DNA from: Pseudoxanthomonas sp. PXM01
GTDB taxonomy: Bacteria > Pseudomonadota > Gammaproteobacteria > Xanthomonadales > Xanthomonadaceae
Reading direction: 5' to 3'
Length of the DNA: 64,000 nucleotides
NCBI RefSeq assembly: GCF_014851815.1
Contig: NZ_JACVAJ010000001.1
Coordinates: forward strand, 620,001 to 684,000
Shown here: positions 813 through 39,042 of the stretch, in pieces
How positions within the stretch are numbered: position 1 is the stretch's first letter
How the letters are laid out: every line of letters begins with the position of its first letter
Translations under genes and position numbers: made by a program
Notes under the pieces: generated by a model
The model's database searches: none
Seen by the model: the letters and a program-made list of their open reading frames with translations, nothing else
What the model was told of the DNA's origin: nothing

Positions 813-3347
813 TCAGCGGGATTTCGCCCGTTTGCGCGCGCCCTGGGTCAGCCTCGCCGCGACCGCTGCGAGATCCTGCTTCCCGCGCATGTAGTCGCCC
901 CACGGATGTTCGCCGATGCGCGCCATGCGGCGCGGCGCGGAGGCCAGCGTGTAGGCATCGCCTCCCTTGATGCGTCCCAGCTCTTCCCAGCGCAGGGGCA
1001 TCGCCACCGGGGCACCGTCGCGTGCCCGCAGCGAGAACGAGGCCACGCTCGTCGCACCGCGTCCGTTGCGCAGGTAGTCGATGAAAATGCGACCCTTGCG
1101 GAACTTCTTCGTCGCGGTCGCGACATACGCCAACGGCTCGGCGGCCGCCATCGACTCGGCGAAGGCATGTGCGAAATCCTTCGCCTGCGTCCACGGACAT
1201 GCGGGCTTCAACGGCACCACCACGTGCAGGCCCTTGCCGCCGGACGTACGCACGTAAGACGTCAATCCCAGCCCGCGCAGGCGCTTGCGGACCAGCCGTG
1301 CCGCGTCCACCACGCGTGCCCATGCCACGTCCGGGCCGGGATCGAGGTCGAAGACGATGCGGTCAGCCCGGTCGGGCGTCTCCGCCCGGGCGCCCCACGG
1401 ATGGAACTCGAGCGCATTGAACTGCGCGAGTTCCAGCAGGCCGGTCTCATCGCGCACCACCAGATAGTCCGCGCGTGCGCCGCCCTCTTCCTCCAGCGGC
1501 ACCACGTCCATCTGCTCCATGCCCGGCGTATGGTGTTTCTGGAAGAAACACGGCCGCCCCGCGCCCTGTGGGCAGCGAACGATGGACAGGGGGCGGCCTT
1601 CGATCTCGGGCAGCAGCCAGCGCGCCATCGCGTGGTAATAGTCGAAGACCTGTTGCTTGGTGATGCCGCTGTCGGGGAAGACGACACGCTCGGGATGCGT
1701 CAGTTCCACGCCGTCGGGGGCCTTTGAAGCACGGCGTGAGTCAGGCATGGCGGATACGCTCCGTGGAGGCAATGGATCGCGCAGGTCGGCCGCGCGCTTG
1801 TCGCGACGGATCGTCTTCAGCGAAGGCTGCCGCAACAGGCCCTGGTTGCCCAGGCCATGGTGGAAGACCTCCGCCACCAGCGTGGGCGCAACCCATCGGG
1901 CACGGCGCAGTTCCGGATCGTCGATCTCCACGCGTGCGGTGGGGGTGCTGCGGGCACGCGGCGCCAACTGTGCCGCCAGCGTCCCCAGCAGCTCGCGGCT
2001 GAAACCGGTGCCCACGCGGCCCGCGTAACGCCAGCCACGTGCACCCTCTGGCGCCGCCAGCAACAGCGCACCCAGGCCGCTGCGGCTGCCCTTCGGCGCG
2101 GTGTAACCGACGACCGCGAATTCGTCGGAAGCGCGCTGTTTGATCTTACGCCAGGCATCGCCGCGACCGGCGTGATACGGCGCATCGGCACGCTTGCTGA
2201 TGATGCCCTCCAGTCCGCGCTCCAGTGCCAGCGCCAGCGCTTCGTCGCCGCGCCCGACGATATGCGAGCTGTACACCAGCCGGTCGGGCGGCGACTTCAG
2301 GATTTCGGCCAGCAGCGCCTTGCGCTGGTACTGCGGGCTGCGGGCCAGGTCCACGCCATCGACCTGCAGGATGTCGAACAGCACGTACGACAGCGCCGCC
2401 TGCTTCTCGCCGGACAGGGTGGCCTGCAGCAGGCCGAAGTCCTCCTGCCGTCCGCCCCCTGCCACCAGTTCGCCATCGAGCACCGCATCATCCAAGGCGA
2501 GCGCTTCGAGGGCCGCGACGATCTCGGGCGCCTTCGCGGTCCATTCGATCTCATTGCGCGACCACAGCCTGGCCCTGCCCTTCGCGATCTGGGCGATCAG
2601 TCGATACCCGTCCCACTTGGCCTCATGCAGCCATGTATCGCCCTGGGGAACGTGTTCCTGCAGTTTCGCGAGCTGCGGCGTGCGGAAGCCGGGACGGTGG
2701 CGGGTCGCGCGCGCGCCATCCAGCCGCGCCGCACGCCGCGCCCAACGCTCGGTCCCGGGCGAGGCGACGACGGCACGCTGGCGTACCTTGCGCAACGGTG
2801 GCGCGGACTTCCCGCCCACGGGCGTCACGTCCTGCAGCAGGTCGTCGGCCTCCTGCGTGCCGGCGAAATCGTCGCGCTCCTTGAACAGCAGCCACTGCGG
2901 TTGGCGCGCCTGCCTGTGCGTCCGGACCAGATGCCAGCCGCCCTTGAGCTTGTCGCCGAACATGCGGAAGCGCAGATGGCCCTTGGCGAGTTGCGCTTCG
3001 GCATCGCCGTCGGTCGTCCACAGGCCACGGTCGAAGGTAGCGACGTGGCCACCGCCGTACTGCCCCTTCGGAATGTCGCCCTCGAAGTCGGCATAGTCGA
3101 TCGGGTGGTCCTCGACCTCGGCAGCCAGCCGCTTCACGTCCGGGTCGAAACTGGGGCCCTTGGGCACGGCCCAGCTCTTCAGCGTGTCGCCGACCTGCAG
3201 GCGGAAATCGTAGTGGCGGTGGCTGGCGTGATGCAGCTGGACCACGAAGATGGGTCGTTTGCCGCGCACGCGGCGCCCATCCGACGCCGGTTCCGGCGTG
3301 CGGTCGAAACGACGCTTGCGGCGGTATTCCTGCAGGCTCATCGGCAT
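813..3347 (-). CDS. ligD: Multifunctional NHEJ DNA ligase LigD
   Basis: 844 residues in the Pseudomonas-type order phosphoesterase, ligase, polymerase. The phosphoesterase domain (about residues 10-170) has the histidine-rich HHASHRHYDFRL segment. The ATP-dependent ligase domain (about 220-520) has the adenylation motif EAKWDGYR with lysine 244. The polymerase/primase domain (about 545-830) begins near VELTHPERVVFP and holds the DLDPG motif. With Ku it processes, fills in and seals double-strand breaks. It is the last gene of a leftward unit with Ku and a GIY-YIG-like protein, 63 bases after the latter. A second ATG two codons in (3341) is an equally possible start. Length and domains look intact. 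Confidence 0.96.
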   Translation of the reverse strand: MPMSLQEYRRKRRFDRTPEPASDGRRVRGKRPIFVVQLHHASHRHYDFRLQVGDTLKSWAVPKGPSFDPDVKRLAAEVEDHPIDYADFEGDIPKGQYGGGHVATFDRGLWTTDGDAEAQLAKGHLRFRMFGDKLKGGWHLVRTHRQARQPQWLLFKERDDFAGTQEADDLLQDVTPVGGKSAPPLRKVRQRAVVASPGTERWARRAARLDGARATRHRPGFRTPQLAKLQEHVPQGDTWLHEAKWDGYRLIAQIAKGRARLWSRNEIEWTAKAPEIVAALEALALDDAVLDGELVAGGGRQEDFGLLQATLSGEKQAALSYVLFDILQVDGVDLARSPQYQRKALLAEILKSPPDRLVYSSHIVGRGDEALALALERGLEGIISKRADAPYHAGRGDAWRKIKQRASDEFAVVGYTAPKGSRSGLGALLLAAPEGARGWRYAGRVGTGFSRELLGTLAAQLAPRARSTPTARVEIDDPELRRARWVAPTLVAEVFHHGLGNQGLLRQPSLKTIRRDKRAADLRDPLPPRSVSAMPDSRRASKAPDGVELTHPERVVFPDSGITKQQVFDYYHAMARWLLPEIEGRPLSIVRCPQGAGRPCFFQKHHTPGMEQMDVVPLEEEGGARADYLVVRDETGLLELAQFNALEFHPWGARAETPDRADRIVFDLDPGPDVAWARVVDAARLVRKRLRGLGLTSYVRTSGGKGLHVVVPLKPACPWTQAKDFAHAFAESMAAAEPLAYVATATKKFRKGRIFIDYLRNGRGATSVASFSLRARDGAPVAMPLRWEELGRIKGGDAYTLASAPRRMARIGEHPWGDYMRGKQDLAAVAARLTQGARKRAKSR

Positions 3348-3410
3348 CCTCGACTACGCCTGTTATGCCGCGCGCGCCGTCAACGGCACGTGCAAGAACG
3401 GACACGTCCT

Positions 3411-4040
3411 TCAGCGCGGCGCCAGCGTATTGCGCATCAACCAGGCCTGCAGCGCCGGAGATACGGCATCGTCCAGCGGCACCCCGACCACCGCATAAGC
3501 GTCCAGTGCATCCCGCAAGGCGGCCAGCGGCAGCCACGCCGTGGCGGAGGGCCACGCCTCGGGCGTGCCATAGCGCGCGATCGCCGCCTGTTCACCGGCG
3601 TCCAGCCCGTCGCGCCCGGCCCGAAGGCGTTGCGCGACCCAATCGCGCAGCGGCGCGTGCACGACGAACCCTTGCAGGACCAGGTCATCGCGTACACCCT
3701 CCAGCACCGTCAGCGCGCCACGGAACCATTCGGTATGCCCGGCCGCCTTCGCCGGCACCTGCAACGGCGGCGGCGCGAGATGCTCGCGCAGCACGCGCTT
3801 CCAGCGGGTTTCCCAACTGCGCGCCTCGCGCACGCTGCCGGCCTCGGCCAGCCAACCGCGGTCGAGGTCGAAGAATTCGTACCAGCGCGGCGAGAACGCC
3901 CGCATGCGCGCCAGGGGATCGGTGGCGATGCCCAGCTTGGCGTGGTCTTCGTAGGCGCAGGGCAGCACGTACAGGCATGCGCGTCCGCTGGCCCCGGTGC
4001 CGACGCCGTCCACCGGCACGATGCGGCGCCCGCCCGCCAT
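3411..4040 (-). CDS. GIY-YIG-like protein between ku and ligD
   Basis: 209 residues of uncertain function. The N-terminal half reads like a degenerate GIY-YIG/T5orf172 domain: CLYVLP (residues 22-27) at the GIY position, KLGIA (35-39) at the YIG position, then ARMRAF with a conserved-type arginine and a glutamate in SWETRWK. The C-terminal half is helical and unrecognised. The start lies 3 bases after the ku stop, so the two are almost certainly co-transcribed, with ligD next. The location suggests an accessory role in end processing, but this is inference; catalytic competence is not established because the motif is degenerate. Confidence 0.6.
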   Translation of the reverse strand: MAGGRRIVPVDGVGTGASGRACLYVLPCAYEDHAKLGIATDPLARMRAFSPRWYEFFDLDRGWLAEAGSVREARSWETRWKRVLREHLAPPPLQVPAKAAGHTEWFRGALTVLEGVRDDLVLQGFVVHAPLRDWVAQRLRAGRDGLDAGEQAAIARYGTPEAWPSATAWLPLAALRDALDAYAVVGVPLDDAVSPALQAWLMRNTLAPR

Positions 4041-32963: not shown

Positions 32964-33803
32964 TCACCGCCCGAACAACGTCATCGCATTCCCGCTGCGG
33001 ATCTTCGCCTTCTCTTCATCGCTCAGGTCGAGGCGGTCGAGGGCCTTGGCGGTGACGTCGAGGCCGATCTGCGGGTAGTCGGAGCCGAGCAGGACGTGGT
33101 CGAGGCCGACGTTGCGCAGGGTCCAGAGGAATTCTTCTTCGACGGGGGAATCGGCCACGACCAGCACGGTGGCGGAGATGTCGAAGTAGAGGTTCTCGAA
33201 GCCGAAGCCGTCGGCGGTGCGTGCGAGGGCGAGGATGTTCCAGAAGCGGAAGTTGAGGCCGCCGATGTGGGCGAGGATGAACTTCGTCTTCGGTACGCGC
33301 ACCACCAGGTTGAACAGCTTTTCGCTGTCGCCGGGCAGGATGTTGGCGTTGTCCATCAGCACGGTGACGCCAAGGTCGCCGGCGCGGCGTGCGAGGGTTT
33401 CGACGCGGGGATCGGACACATCGAAGCCCTGGGTGTGGGCGTGGATCTTCAGCACCTTCACGCCGGCGGCGGCGACGCGGGCAAGTTCGGCCAGGGCGGC
33501 GTCGCCGTCGTACGGGTGGACGGTGGCGATGGGCAGGACGTCGGGGTGTTTGGTCGCCAGGGCGATGACGCGGTCGTTGCCGGCGCGGATCTTGTCCAGG
33601 TCGCCCTGCCGGGCCTGGTGGGGGCCGCCGAACCACATCACGCCGATGCCGGACAGTTGCAGGCCGGCGGCGCGGACGTCGTCGCGGTACTGCTGCAGGG
33701 AGGTTTCGCCGTCGCGCAGGTGGACGTGGACGTCGAAGACGGGGTTCGCGGCCAGGGCATGGCCGGTGAACAGGCAGAGGGTCAGGGCCAGCAGGCGCCG
33801 CAT
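32964..33803 (-). CDS. Exported amidohydrolase-family (TIM-barrel) metal hydrolase
   Basis: 279 residues with a signal peptide (MRRLLALTLCLFTGHALA). The Amidohydro_2 pattern: FDVHVHLRDGE (HxH at strand 1), VLKIHAHTQGF, FILAHIGGLNF and LLGSDYPQIG with the strand-8 aspartate. A periplasmic location is unusual for this superfamily. Start 33803 is preferred over 33833. Substrate unknown; decarboxylase or lactonase-like members share these motifs. Confidence 0.82.
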   Translation of the reverse strand: MRRLLALTLCLFTGHALAANPVFDVHVHLRDGETSLQQYRDDVRAAGLQLSGIGVMWFGGPHQARQGDLDKIRAGNDRVIALATKHPDVLPIATVHPYDGDAALAELARVAAAGVKVLKIHAHTQGFDVSDPRVETLARRAGDLGVTVLMDNANILPGDSEKLFNLVVRVPKTKFILAHIGGLNFRFWNILALARTADGFGFENLYFDISATVLVVADSPVEEEFLWTLRNVGLDHVLLGSDYPQIGLDVTAKALDRLDLSDEEKAKIRSGNAMTLFGR

Positions 33804-33927
33804 CGGTCGTCTCACAGGTCTCGGGAGGGGCACAGGGTGCCACGGGGGAATGTGAGGGACCCGTTCGGGGGTCGGATGGCCCCGGGGGCGGCGTCACCGT
33901 CCGCCATGGGGTCCGGTGTCCGCCGGG

Positions 33928-34158
33928 TGTTTTCGATGCAACGTTGCATGTTTTCGATGGAACGTCGGGTCTTTGTGTTAGCTGAGCCGATGTTTTCGAT
34001 GGAACGTTCCATCGTTTCGATCCAGCGTTGCATCGTTTTGATGGAACGGTGGATGTTTTCGATGGAGCGTCGAGTCTTTCTGTTAGATGAGCCGATGTTT
34101 TCGATGCAACGTCGGATCGCTTTGATGGAACGGCGGATGTTTTCGATGGAATGTCGGG
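33928..34158. repeat. Eleven-unit tandem array of exact 21-bp period
   Basis: Eleven consecutive 21-base units without indels. Nine are type A (consensus TGTTTTCGATGGAACGTCGG plus one base) and units 3 and 8 are type B (TCTTTGTGTTAGCTGAGCCG plus one base), spaced five units apart. Two units form perfect palindromes: ATGCAACGTTGCAT (33936-33949) and CGATGGAACGTTCCATCG (33997-34014). Because 21 is seven codons, one minus-strand frame spells a coiled-coil-like heptad (I/M-x-R-S/C/W-I-E/K-N/T), but it has no ATG or GTG before 34033, so coding is uncertain. Confidence 0.9.
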
Positions 34159-34240
34159 TCGCGGGGATGGGCTAGGCGCCGGCCCACCGGCAACCCTGCG
34201 GCTTTGTGTGAGATGCGCCGAGGGGGTTCGGCCAGCTTCC

Positions 34241-34262
34241 GTAGGGCGGGCTCGAGCCCGCC
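34241..34262 (+). repeat. Single REP element
   Basis: GTAGGGCGGGCTCGAGCCCG and its closing CC form one REP palindrome just left of the RAYT remnant. Confidence 0.85.
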
Positions 34263-34279
34263 ATCCCGCACACCGCTCC

Positions 34280-34360
34280 CCCACCCAGGTGGCGCTCCAG
34301 CAGGTTGACGGTGAAGAAGTCGGCGCCGCCCGGCACCCATCCGCGCCGGTAGTTCGGCAT
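34280..34360 (-). pseudogene. RAYT N-terminal remnant
   Basis: About 27 codons reading MPNYRRGWVPGGADFFTVNL then LERH match the first residues of the intact RAYT at 28184-28723 (MPNYRRVLVPGGTYFFTVNL, RERH). The similarity then stops and REP sequence follows; the HUH and tyrosine motifs are missing. A decayed second RAYT copy flanked by REPs. Confidence 0.8.
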
Positions 34361-34448
34361 GCCGGCAGCGTGCGTGGGAGCGCACATCATCACCGCCGCC
34401 GCAGACCGCACGCTCGTGTGGGCGTCCGGTCGACGCAAGCCACACGGT

Positions 34449-34570
34449 GGTGGGCCAGGGCCCACCTTACGCAGATGTTCTCGCTTCCTCCGAACCCCAC
34501 CTCGGTCAACGTGGGCGGGCGTAGGGCGGGCAAAGCCCGCCTTACGAGTTGAAGCCCGCCTTACGGGCTA
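34449..34570. repeat. Degenerate REP cluster at the left edge of the AT-rich module
   Basis: Variants of the REP: 34449-34470 (GGTGGGCCAGGGCCCACC), 34521-34545 (GTAGGGCGGGCAAAGCCCGC) and a half-element near 34551-34570. They end about 8 bases before the first gene of the AT-rich pair and mark its boundary. Confidence 0.8.
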
Positions 34571-34577
34571 CCCTCAA

Positions 34578-35027
34578 TCATTTAGGCCCATCAAATTTAA
34601 GAACTTTCTCGAGATCAAACTCGTCGTTCTTCGCCACAACATGAATTGGCACCTTGTGCTTAGCTACAAACTTCTTTGTAAGCCGCTGCAAGCCAGTATC
34701 AAACCTCGGGTATCGCGCACAAACGACTAATCCCGCGAAAGGTCGCAACTCTTTAAGTTTCTCACATCCTTTTACATGCTCAAGCGTCGCATCGATCTGA
34801 TCAACGGCATGCTCAACGTCAGTTCCCTTCAACTCCACGACCACACTGCCGACGCCCGGACAGGACACCATAAAATCCGCGGCAGTCTTATTTTTTATCA
34901 GACATCCATCAACGCGAACCCGATGATAGGCAGCTTTCTTAAGGTTCTTAAAAACAGCGCTCCGTGCGCCCTCAGCGACTTTTACATTCGAATCCTTTGT
35001 GACGTTGCGACAGTCTGCGCAAGTCAT
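34578..35027 (-). CDS. Small PD-(D/E)xK nuclease-like protein paired with ATPase
   Basis: 149 residues. The core reads like a PD-(D/E)xK fold: aspartate 51 in TAADFMV, a beta turn, then VVVELKG giving E65 and K67 (ExK), and a following helix with DQ (residues 76-77). An N-terminal CxxC (CADC, residues 3-6) is also present. The start overlaps the ATPase stop by ATGA, so the two are translationally coupled. Base composition and codons are AT-rich compared with all neighbours, indicating horizontal acquisition. The fold call is motif-based and moderate; the known family is not recognised. I infer that it is the nuclease effector of a two-gene defence module. Confidence 0.7.
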   Translation of the reverse strand: MTCADCRNVTKDSNVKVAEGARSAVFKNLKKAAYHRVRVDGCLIKNKTAADFMVSCPGVGSVVVELKGTDVEHAVDQIDATLEHVKGCEKLKELRPFAGLVVCARYPRFDTGLQRLTKKFVAKHKVPIHVVAKNDEFDLEKVLKFDGPK

Positions 35028-36295
35028 GAGGAATATTCCACGGAAAGTATTTTCGAAAACTCCTGAGCGATATCACCTGAAACATCATCAAGATAAGAAG
35101 CCTCGATCAACCCATCCTCAACATCCTGAATATTTATTACAACACCATTATTAATCGCGTAGGCGTTTACCCTGCTTCCATCTATCCAGTTAACTTCCGA
35201 AACTATTTTATCTACTGCAAGAAACTTCTTTGAACGTTTAGACCCAGCAACCTGCTTAGCCTTTATTAGATTGTTTATTTTGGCCAAAACGTAGGGGCTG
35301 TGCGTAGTAATAAATAGCTTTGACCTACCTTTTGACATAGATAGAAAAGACCCAAACACCTCAACCAATGAGCTTTGCGCAGATGGAAACAAGTGAGCTT
35401 CCGGCTCCTCAATAAAGACCAACTGCTGAAAGCGACGCGTGACATGGATACCCGCCCTACTCTTGATCGCAAGAACTAACGGCATTAGCTCCTGCTGGCC
35501 AGATGACAGTGCCGACAGAGGTATTCTCCTTCCATCCGAGGCCTGCAAATACTCGGCAGAACGATCTGCAACAAGTTTTCCGCACATTAGGTCATTTAGC
35601 TTGTTCAACCATTTTGTGTCGACGCCATCAGACCCATAATTAAGCGGCCCACGCTCTTTGAGAGCCGTATAAAGCCTACCAAACCTTACGGTCAGCGGAT
35701 CCAATACGCGACCATGCTCAAACGCAGCAATACTTTTGCCAATACTGGTGAAGAAGGATCGACCCGCCGGCACAAAGGTTTGCAGCTCAGGGAAATCGCG
35801 CCCCAAATTCTCGCGAAGATTACCGGTAACCTCCTCTCTTACTTTCCAGAAAGCCTCAAGCGCCTGACCCTCGATCTCGGGCGAATTTGCCCTAATAGAT
35901 TCGGTAAGCAATAGTGCTTTCCTGAACTGATCTTCGAAGTAAGAAGAAAACCAAATCCTTATGTTTTCTCCCAACTTCTTTCTGTATTCAATTCTCGTAA
36001 TTCTTACCTGATATGCTCCAGCCTCGAACTCAATACAGAATTTCTTACCCCCCCATGCTGACACGGGAAACCATTCCTTGAACCTCTCTTTTACTAGCTC
36101 CTTGAAGGAATCCAACCCTTTGCTATCTTCAATCGCGTAGAACTGCTCGGCTAGCAGGCTATTAAAGAAGTAGGTGAGCTTGGATATGACGCTCTTGCCG
36201 CTGGCTGACGGACCAATAAGAACGGTCAGGTCCGACAACTCTACTTCCGCCTTCTTAATACATGAAAATTCAGAAACAGTTAGGCGAGTCGTCAT
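35024..36295 (-). CDS. ABC/OLD-type AAA ATPase of candidate defence pair
   Basis: 423 residues. Walker A GPSASGKS (28-35), an ABC signature-like LSSGQQE (263-269), Walker B LVFIEEPEAHLF (292-303) and an H-loop TTHSPYVL (330-337) place it with the AAA_15/AAA_21 ATPases of OLD, Gabija, Septu and PARIS type. The middle (about 50-250) is a helical insertion. After residue 340 there is only about 80 residues, and no TOPRIM acidic motifs are evident, so unlike OLD or GajA it seems to lack its own nuclease and probably relies on the overlapping partner. AT-rich, atypical codons. Walker residues are intact. Confidence 0.88.
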   Translation of the reverse strand: MTTRLTVSEFSCIKKAEVELSDLTVLIGPSASGKSVISKLTYFFNSLLAEQFYAIEDSKGLDSFKELVKERFKEWFPVSAWGGKKFCIEFEAGAYQVRITRIEYRKKLGENIRIWFSSYFEDQFRKALLLTESIRANSPEIEGQALEAFWKVREEVTGNLRENLGRDFPELQTFVPAGRSFFTSIGKSIAAFEHGRVLDPLTVRFGRLYTALKERGPLNYGSDGVDTKWLNKLNDLMCGKLVADRSAEYLQASDGRRIPLSALSSGQQELMPLVLAIKSRAGIHVTRRFQQLVFIEEPEAHLFPSAQSSLVEVFGSFLSMSKGRSKLFITTHSPYVLAKINNLIKAKQVAGSKRSKKFLAVDKIVSEVNWIDGSRVNAYAINNGVVINIQDVEDGLIEASYLDDVSGDIAQEFSKILSVEYSS

Positions 36296-36609
36296 CTAAA
36301 GCTCTCTTTGTATTGTTTTCATTGAAATATTATTAATCTCTATAAGAAATAATTTCCGCAGCCTAATTCAAGCGCAAAGGAACGAATTTCTTAGTTTGAC
36401 GCGAAAATTCTAACAAACCATGTCAGGCGTCGGAACTACGTTTCCTGGTGACCGACCTTTGCCACTGTCTGCCACAATGTCTTGCCCCCAATAGCTCCGA
36501 CTGCGCTCCGACAATAGCCTTTAAGTGGCTCACCGGGTAATGTCACGCCTTGCCCGGCACCTCGCACCATGAAGTCCCCCTTCCCCTTCCACCCCCGCCG
36601 CCCCCCCGC
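36296..36609. other. AT-rich leader of the ATPase pair and right boundary of the module
   Basis: 36296-36420 is strongly AT-rich and should hold the leftward promoter of the ATPase gene; no hexamer pair is convincing. From about 36425 composition returns to GC-rich. The part 36425-36540 has no gene I can support. The end carries a pyrimidine-rich leader for the next gene. Confidence 0.6.
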
Positions 36610-37485
36610 ATGACCGATGCGCCAAGCCGCACGCGCGCGGCGTCGTTGAGTCCGCTGGACAGGGAAGACCGCCACATCAAACGGAACGAGCGCAGCATCG
36701 GCTCCCTCGTGAGCCTGCTGGTGCACCTGCTGTTCGTGGCCGCCCTGCTGTACTCCTCCAAGATGGAGCTGTCCCAGCCCGAGAGCAGCAGCGCCGGCGG
36801 CGCCCGGGTCAAAGTCGACTTCCTGGGCGAACCCACCGACGACGAACAGCGCGTGCCCGTGCCCCCGACCGGCACCCGCAATCCCAGCGAACGCCCCAAA
36901 CCCCTCAAGCCGCTGGTCACCACCCCCGTCAAATCGCCCGTCGACGCCACCCGCGTGACCGAGGCCGAGAACCCCGTCGCCCCCGACGAATCCCAACCCC
37001 AGCCCCCGTCCAGCCAACAGGCCGTCGCCCCGCCCCGCCCGCAACCCCCATCCAGCCCGCCCGCCTGGCGCCGCTCCGCCCGCTGGGGCCAGCCCCCCGG
37101 CATGCTCGCCCAGGACACCGCCCCCGAAAACCTCGGTCCCACCGTCGGCGCCGGCCAACGCCAGGGCAACCAGCAAGGCAACGCCGCCACCCCCAGCATG
37201 GAAGTGGACGGCCACCAGATCTATTACGACCTGCGCAACGAACGCAAGATCGCCGAATGGCAACTGCAGGGCATGAAGGAAATCTCCTTCCCCCTGCCCG
37301 GCCGCGCCGACCTGATGGTCTGCGCCCTGGAGATCGTCGCCACCCGCGGCTCCGGCGGCTGCCGCCTGGTGCAACCCGGCGACCCCGACCTGGCGACCAT
37401 CGGCGACGCCCGCGACGTGGTGGACGTGATGCGCATCTATCGCCGCGGCGAACTGATCTGGCGCGGACCGGGCGCGTACCGCTGA
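36610..37485 (+). CDS. TonB-like inner-membrane protein with proline-rich stalk
   Basis: 291 residues. A basic N-terminus is followed by one transmembrane helix (SLVSLLVHLLFVAALLYSS, about 33-51), a long Pro/Gln/Ser-rich periplasmic stalk (about 75-185) and a folded C-terminal domain (about 200-291) with MEVDGHQIYYDLRNERKIAEW and two cysteines (MVCALE, GGCRLV). The layout is that of TonB or energy-transducer proteins, but the C-terminal sequence is not a recognised TonB fold. No ExbBD genes are adjacent. The role is unknown. Confidence 0.7.
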   Translation: MTDAPSRTRAASLSPLDREDRHIKRNERSIGSLVSLLVHLLFVAALLYSSKMELSQPESSSAGGARVKVDFLGEPTDDEQRVPVPPTGTRNPSERPKPLKPLVTTPVKSPVDATRVTEAENPVAPDESQPQPPSSQQAVAPPRPQPPSSPPAWRRSARWGQPPGMLAQDTAPENLGPTVGAGQRQGNQQGNAATPSMEVDGHQIYYDLRNERKIAEWQLQGMKEISFPLPGRADLMVCALEIVATRGSGGCRLVQPGDPDLATIGDARDVVDVMRIYRRGELIWRGPGAYR

Positions 37486-38717: not shown

Positions 38718-38884
38718 GGAGAGCCTCGGACAGTCGGCGTGGGGGAATCGCGACGCGCGGGGCGCGTGCTGCGGCGTAACGTACCGACGCGCGCCCGACA
38801 CCGACAGGCCGGCGCGCCGAACCGGCGCCATCGCCGACAAAGCCCCGGAATGACGGCGCGAATCGCAGGCCTCGCGGGGCGGAC

Positions 38885-39042
38885 GTAGGGCGGACGTAGG
38901 GCGGACGTAGGGCGGACGTAGGGCGGGCGTAGGGCGGGCGTAGGGCGGGCTCAAGCCCGCCGTCGCGGACCGTCCAACACCGGGGCACTCCGCCGGAGAA
39001 CACCACGGATGCATCCACATGACGGGCTTGAGCCCGCCCTAC
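38885..39042. repeat. REP doublet with six-fold tandem expansion of one arm
   Basis: Six 11-base units (three GTAGGGCGGAC, three GTAGGGCGGGC, 38885-38950) precede the second arm TCAAGCCCGCC; the partner inverted REP is at 39021-39042. This occupies most of the gap 38718-39046 and ends 4 bases from the next stop codon. Confidence 0.92.

Follow-up and report, generated by a model that had tools for sequence, protein, structure and literature searches.

Background

The closest described systems combine an ATPase of the OLD, Septu and AriA clade with a nuclease. In Septu and in retrons Ec78/Ec83, the OLD-like ABC ATPase PtuA works with the separate protein PtuB, an HNH nuclease, and in PARIS the ATPase AriA works with AriB, a TOPRIM (DUF4435) nuclease. 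The OLD proteins and GajA of Gabija carry a C-terminal TOPRIM within the ATPase chain itself. A further two-protein combination, the candidate PDC-M29, is listed in PADLOC-DB 2.0.0 (2023), where its two models span 410 and 164 positions and no function is stated. The PDC sets reportedly stem from Payne et al. 2024. PDC stands for phage defence candidate (PMC11514479). Term searches of a literature collection found no mention of PDC-M29, and those that joined ATPase with nuclease-fold terms found no paper.

Here we describe a gene pair of Pseudoxanthomonas sp. PXM01 (genome size 4.18 Mb) that both PDC-M29 models match. It lies within a stretch of 64,000 nucleotides, the whole of which is called the window below. 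An earlier note had proposed the pair as an undescribed defence system.

The gene pair

Both genes were found on the minus strand. The gene for protein A, a 423-residue ABC-type ATPase of the OLD/Septu/AriA clade resembling PDC-M29A, extends over 35024..36295, and that for protein B, a small PD-(D/E)xK-like protein of 149 residues resembling PDC-M29B, over 34578..35027. The start codon of B lies inside the stop codon of A (ATGA, gap of -4 nt), which is the overlap that the earlier note had read. A possible ribosome-binding sequence, AGAGAG, stands ahead of the ATPase start. The composition of the pair, which had also drawn attention, was as described: the GC content was 0.456 for the ATPase gene and 0.48 for the small gene, compared with 0.68 for the window. 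When the 64 kb were scanned in 1-kb windows at a step of 250, six of the 253 fell below 0.52 GC, and all six covered the pair. The cassette has an AT-rich leader (36296..36511, no strand assigned). Scans for promoters and terminators found sites no more often than in shuffled sequences, Rfam gave no match between 30000 and 40000, and no tRNA was found across the window.

Properties of the two proteins

The ATPase motifs of protein A were intact, with Walker A (GPSASGKS) at residues 28-35 followed by LSSGQQE, IEEPEAHLF and TTHS(PY). In Pfam it matched AAA_15 (6.7e-25) and AAA_21 (1.5e-21), and in PADLOC it matched both AriA (1.8e-27) and PDC-M29A (2e-23), AriA scoring better. The A5 profile retrieved PDB chains of OLD, of retron and Septu PtuA and of AriA. 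The predicted model of A (pLDDT 86.9) gave 162 PDB matches at E <= 0.001 in a fold search; the best 50 of these 162 were PtuA, AriA, Rad50 and GajA chains, with PtuA, AriA and Rad50 at the head. Eighty-eight residues follow TTHSPY at the C-terminus, and 84-93 residues do so in the 18 of 19 tabulated loci that have the exact motif. In the model this part was predicted to form the elements H334-350, H356-364, E376-382, E385-388 and H408-422, which do not read like a TOPRIM domain, and A gave no match to the TOPRIM families of Pfam. The earlier assignment of A to an ABC/OLD type, with a short tail and without a TOPRIM, was upheld.

Protein B carries D51, E65-L-K67 and Q77. In an alignment of 17 homologues with identities down to 20%, D40, D51, V64-E65-L66-K67-G68 and P107 were invariant; E19 and Q77 were nearly so, Q77 being present in 90% or more. 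The invariance of D51, E65 and K67 in 17/17 is what an active site would be expected to show, and supports the PD-(D/E)xK-like arrangement that had been suggested from the single sequence. Database matches to B were few. No significant match was obtained in Pfam, NCBIfam or PDB sequences, and the sole PADLOC match was a weak one to PDC-M29B (2.9e-5). Weak family matches were seen for the relatives of B, namely HSDR_N in 3/13 (best 0.034) and an MmcB-like family in 1/13 (0.0044).

The AlphaFold model of B was of high confidence (pLDDT 88). Its PDB fold matches, all weak (E >= 0.079), were led by Mus81-Eme1, Hef and Can2, and lower down stood Nt.BspD6I (TM 0.42, rmsd 3.5), XPF, Card1 and SfsA; the query-normalised TM was 0.15-0.45 among the matches listed. 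We take Mus81-Eme1, Hef/XPF, Can2, Card1, Nt.BspD6I and SfsA to share a PD-(D/E)xK-type fold, and by our reading proteins of this or the ERCC4 fold make up 24 of the 50 best PDB matches, including the first five, at the same weak E values. Since Foldseek returned nothing at E <= 0.001 (best 0.079 in the PDB and 0.0025 in BFVD), the nuclease fold is regarded as probable rather than proven, and from its conserved residues and predicted model B is probably a PD-(D/E)xK nuclease.

Relationship to described systems

Both PDC-M29 models matched the pair and its relatives. PDC-M29A detected 13/13 relatives of A (best 3.2e-50) at E <= 0.01, and PDC-M29B detected 6/13 relatives of B (best 6.7e-10) at the same threshold and missed the other seven. 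The pair is therefore a divergent member of this catalogued candidate, which is itself a prediction, and the likeness is weak on the side of B. The description of the pair as an undescribed system did not hold, because PDC-M29 was already in the catalogue. What the present analysis adds to that entry is the putative PD-(D/E)xK assignment of B and the chromosomal hotspot.

Membership in one of the named systems was considered and rejected on the tests of the partner or of the TOPRIM. The pair resembles Septu and the retron PtuAB in having an OLD-like ABC ATPase with a separate putative nuclease, and PtuA topped the structural matches, at 12-16% identity to A in the structure alignments listed. 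However, PtuB is an HNH nuclease, a term that PDB titles of the matches also carry, whereas B has an ExK motif and matched no HNH family in Pfam, PADLOC or NCBIfam. With PARIS the likeness is that AriA was the best-scoring PADLOC model for A; B matched neither DUF4435 nor AriB in Pfam and PADLOC. OLD class 1/2 and GajA share the ATPase clade with A but differ in their TOPRIM, for which A gave no match; A has only the short stretch beyond TTHSPY. Plain membership in Septu, PARIS or Gabija was thus rejected.

Linkage and distribution of the pair

A scan with the B alignment gave 11 loci in genome contigs and one in viral contigs, and further pair loci came from searches of whole genomes, phages and plasmids. 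In all 19 tabulated loci, a gene of the A type was located directly upstream of B on the same strand, at a spacing of -17 to +1 nt as counted from start codons some of which were picked by us; a twentieth locus, L093, had the identical layout. The distances between A proteins and between B proteins over the 19 loci were correlated (Mantel r 0.897, 0/2000 permutations as high). The constant gene order and this correlation confirmed that the arrangement of A and B exceeds chance and that the two genes are inherited together.

The pair was rare, being found in 5/395 genomes of the family and 3/398 of the phylum, the source genome counted in both. In two of the carriers of the same family, the proteins were the same as in records of Chiayiivirga flava and [Pseudomonas] boreopolis. 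Among the hosts that carry names are Lysobacterales, Alphaproteobacteria, Acidobacteria and Bacteroides, and in 18/19 loci the GC content of the pair was lower than that of the rest of the locus, the exception being a Bacteroides finegoldii plasmid.

Copies were also found on mobile DNA. On one viral contig (L028), which may be phage or prophage, the pair lies on the opposite strand between the neck/tail-completion and minor head genes, and its surroundings include genes for the portal, head protease, major head protein and endolysin; we presume this gene content to be Mu-like. Two Bacteroidota plasmids carry the pair as well. That of B. finegoldii has a run of glycosyltransferase genes broken by it, and in the Muribaculaceae plasmid a DNA invertase-type gene stands directly behind it. 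With the ATPase as the query, 11 loci were obtained in viral contigs, ten with short matched stretches and one (L005) matched over residues 4-344 at 26%. B alone had no match in viral contigs or plasmids, and in the phage collection it found one record, an unverified faecal scaffold in which the pair is present. The phage or prophage copy, the plasmid copies and the foreign composition support a horizontal acquisition of the pair.

The insertion site and its boundaries

In the window the pair lies between two landmarks. On the right is a conserved gene (36550..37485, plus strand) which we take to be TonB-like and which had no Pfam match at 0.01; on the left is a gene (32964..33833, minus strand) which, by our reading, is amidohydrolase-like. 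The TonB-like gene was matched in 37/38 genus members and the amidohydrolase-like gene in 16/38, the source genome counted. We examined 33 of the 37 members with a TonB-like match, leaving out G657 and fragmented G230, G640 and G665. The 32 congener loci were split into 14 at 62-90% and 18 at 37-52% according to how identical their longest TonB-like match was, so that the close group comprises 15 genomes with the source genome. The amidohydrolase-like gene was present in 12 of the 14 other close congeners.

The earlier note had described both edges of the cassette as marked by REP debris or by loss of the compositional bias. This was true of the left edge as regards REP palindromes; the right edge was compositional only, with no such palindrome from the pair rightward up to 37505. 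The palindrome GTAGGGCGGGC(N)GCCCGCC has 17 sites in the window, from 24480 to 47661, and none in 100 shuffles. At the left edge, GTAGGGCGGGC..GCCCGCC is found at 34241..34262 (plus strand), and the 3' end of the small gene is 36 bp away from another REP-like palindrome at 34521..34541 (plus strand). Between the amidohydrolase-like gene and the pair there are also a diverged tandem array with a period of 21/42/105 bp (33924..34162, no strand assigned) and what is probably left of a transposase gene of the REP-associated (Y1_Tnp) type (34172..34465, minus strand). The right edge was placed at the start of the TonB-like gene, because homology to the window resumed between 36512 and 36592 in 14/14 close congeners, no more than about 40 bp from 36550, where the TonB-like gene has its first possible start codon.

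DNA homologous to the transposase remnant (34293-34473) was found no farther than about 0.8 kb from the cassette in 8/14 congeners. The Y1_Tnp model, run on nine genomes, matched at the hotspot in one of them (G669, a homologous copy, above the Pfam cut-off); it matched neither the remnant in the window nor the comparable ORFs of G645 and G666. No integrase was recognised by eye among the ORFs adjoining the cassettes. Tandem arrays with a period of 21 or a multiple of it were present in 10/14 close congener hotspots (11/15 with the window) and in 0/18 other congeners, as counted in fetched stretches of unequal length. The unit sequences differed between the hotspot loci (L058, L059, L061, L062, L065-L069, L071 and the window).

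Cassettes of the close congeners

The site directly upstream of the TonB-like gene corresponds to 33834-36550 of the window and to L058-L071 of the congeners. In 14 of the 15 close genomes it was occupied by an AT-rich cassette, mostly of one to two genes, and over the 1 kb that precedes the TonB-like start the GC content was 0.44-0.56; in the 18 other congeners the same 1 kb had 0.59-0.74. The remaining close genome, G117, has an empty site, with 193 bp between the landmark matches; the blocks that are homologous to the window stand 115 bp apart.

Ten of the 14 cassettes matched defence or immunity families in PADLOC or Pfam, two of them being the pair of the window and the copy in G658. PADLOC was run on 11 of the 14 (on the larger protein only for G242 and G666), with seven matched and four not, and the cassettes of G669, G659 and G668 were compared with Pfam only. 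The G658 cassette holds a diverged second copy of the pair (A 29% and B 33% identity, PDC-M29B 3.8e-7). The other cassettes matched in PADLOC hold a KAP NTPase/PDC-S49 in G663, GmrSD_N/NsnA in G645, a HEC-01A ATPase in G206, a ThsA-like SIR2_2 protein in G638 and AAA_13 of the RloC/PrrC-like PDC-S06 in G661. Pfam alone, with no PADLOC match, recognised Mrr_cat and NCH1 together with a below-cut-off NACHT match in G662, and SIR2_2 with nSTAND5 in G660; G668 has CBASS-type SMODS genes and SLATT_6 (Pfam). The other four gave no recognised defence family; they encode HNH_2 (G659) and DUF5677 (G669) proteins, both by Pfam, an AAA protein with a protein of 253 aa (G242), and proteins of 235 aa and 751 aa (G666). 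By position, and not by homology, these four occupied sites present themselves as candidates for new systems.

The pair sits in an apparently unreported defence hotspot. No report of a hotspot in the present lineage was found among the literature matches listed, and a term search of a paper on Stenotrophomonas maltophilia defence islands found no TonB, amidohydrolase or PDC-M in the text. The core defence hotspots of Pseudomonas aeruginosa (PMC10250203) likewise hold varying immune cargo at a chromosomal position that is conserved; they belong to another genus, and the likeness concerns position and cargo.

Interpretation

We put at roughly two in three the probability that these two genes form a mobile system of the PDC-M29 type which acts against phages or plasmids, was acquired at the hotspot and has its nuclease B gated by A. 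Protein A would be an ABC ATPase that forms a dimer or oligomer like PtuA and AriA, and in its ATP-bound state it may sense infection or abnormal DNA. Protein B would be a small PD-(D/E)xK nuclease kept in a complex with A until the ATPase, acting as PtuA does with PtuB or AriA with AriB, frees or positions it. DNA would then be cut, through either abortive infection or direct degradation. As an AT-rich cassette, the pair would have been gained at a hotspot that is specific to the lineage and that immune-type genes mostly occupy. Of the contextual evidence, the enrichment of such genes at this hotspot speaks most strongly for the pair as a defence system; together with the phage or prophage copy and the plasmid copies it supports a defence context. 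That two congeners hold diverged copies of the pair at one and the same site suggests that the cassette has been repeatedly selected. Counting against the proposal are the weak fold statistics of B, the relatives missed by PDC-M29B and the unclassified cassettes.

A different role for a gated nuclease would be that of a toxin-antitoxin or addiction module, with the ATPase restraining a small nuclease toxin, the pair stabilising mobile DNA and defence being a by-product. Two overlapping genes with the larger partner ahead of the small effector, carriage on plasmids and on the phage contig, and PDB entries that name AriA of PARIS an 'antitoxin' would all suit such a module, whereas residence of the pair in a chromosomal hotspot among immune-type genes speaks against it. 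It overlaps mechanistically with abortive defence and is hard to tell apart from it by sequence; we regard it as improbable. B could also be a partner in a structural or regulatory role whose PD-(D/E)xK-like fold is inactive, as its fold matches are weak and some are to members such as FAAP24, which we take to be a non-nuclease protein. The invariance of D51, E65 and K67 down to 20% identity argues against this, and it seems no likelier than an addiction module.

That the pair acts like Rad50/SbcCD in DNA-end processing or repair, with no defence role, we find slightly less credible still. The model of A does match Rad50 structures, but the pair is sparsely distributed, has a foreign composition, is carried by phage and plasmids and shares its site with other immune cassettes. 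A housekeeping role was rejected on these same grounds of distribution, composition and context.

Returning to an ATPase-gated defence nuclease, we consider it reasonably probable that the pair belongs to a distinct immune class, an ATPase with a stand-alone PD-(D/E)xK protein, and sits at a previously unreported docking site with a REP transposase, often decayed, on one side and a TonB-like gene on the other. One lineage of the Lysobacteraceae would there exchange compact, AT-rich immune cassettes that comprise one to a few genes and bring no integrase with them, perhaps through recombination in the conserved flanks and REP-type DNA. An uncharacterised PADLOC candidate would in this way gain a testable mechanism, that of an ATPase-gated PD-(D/E)xK nuclease with named catalytic residues.

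Additional observations

Hotspot cassettes without a recognised defence family, which are candidate new immune systems, were located at 6390-8649 of L066 and at 3132-6091 of L068. In G174 (L072), a CBASS-type DncV-like cyclase gene and a patatin gene (1566-3946) are found 2.7 kb upstream of a more distant TonB-like gene. The unit of the tandem array in the window recurs once elsewhere in the source genome (C4:896680-896861), and 6.5 copies of the 11-bp unit GGGCGGACGTA, 98% matching, are present at 38877-38948. In [Pseudomonas] boreopolis and Stenotrophomonas ginsengisoli (L018/L019) a pyruvate dehydrogenase E1 gene, presumably aceE-like, precedes the pair at a distance of 74-78 bp, and this spot is possibly a second insertion site. 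Two further pairs (L020, L022) lie near genes that we take to be ffh-like, and another two (L029, L030) stand beside a gene that is presumably elongation-factor-G-like.
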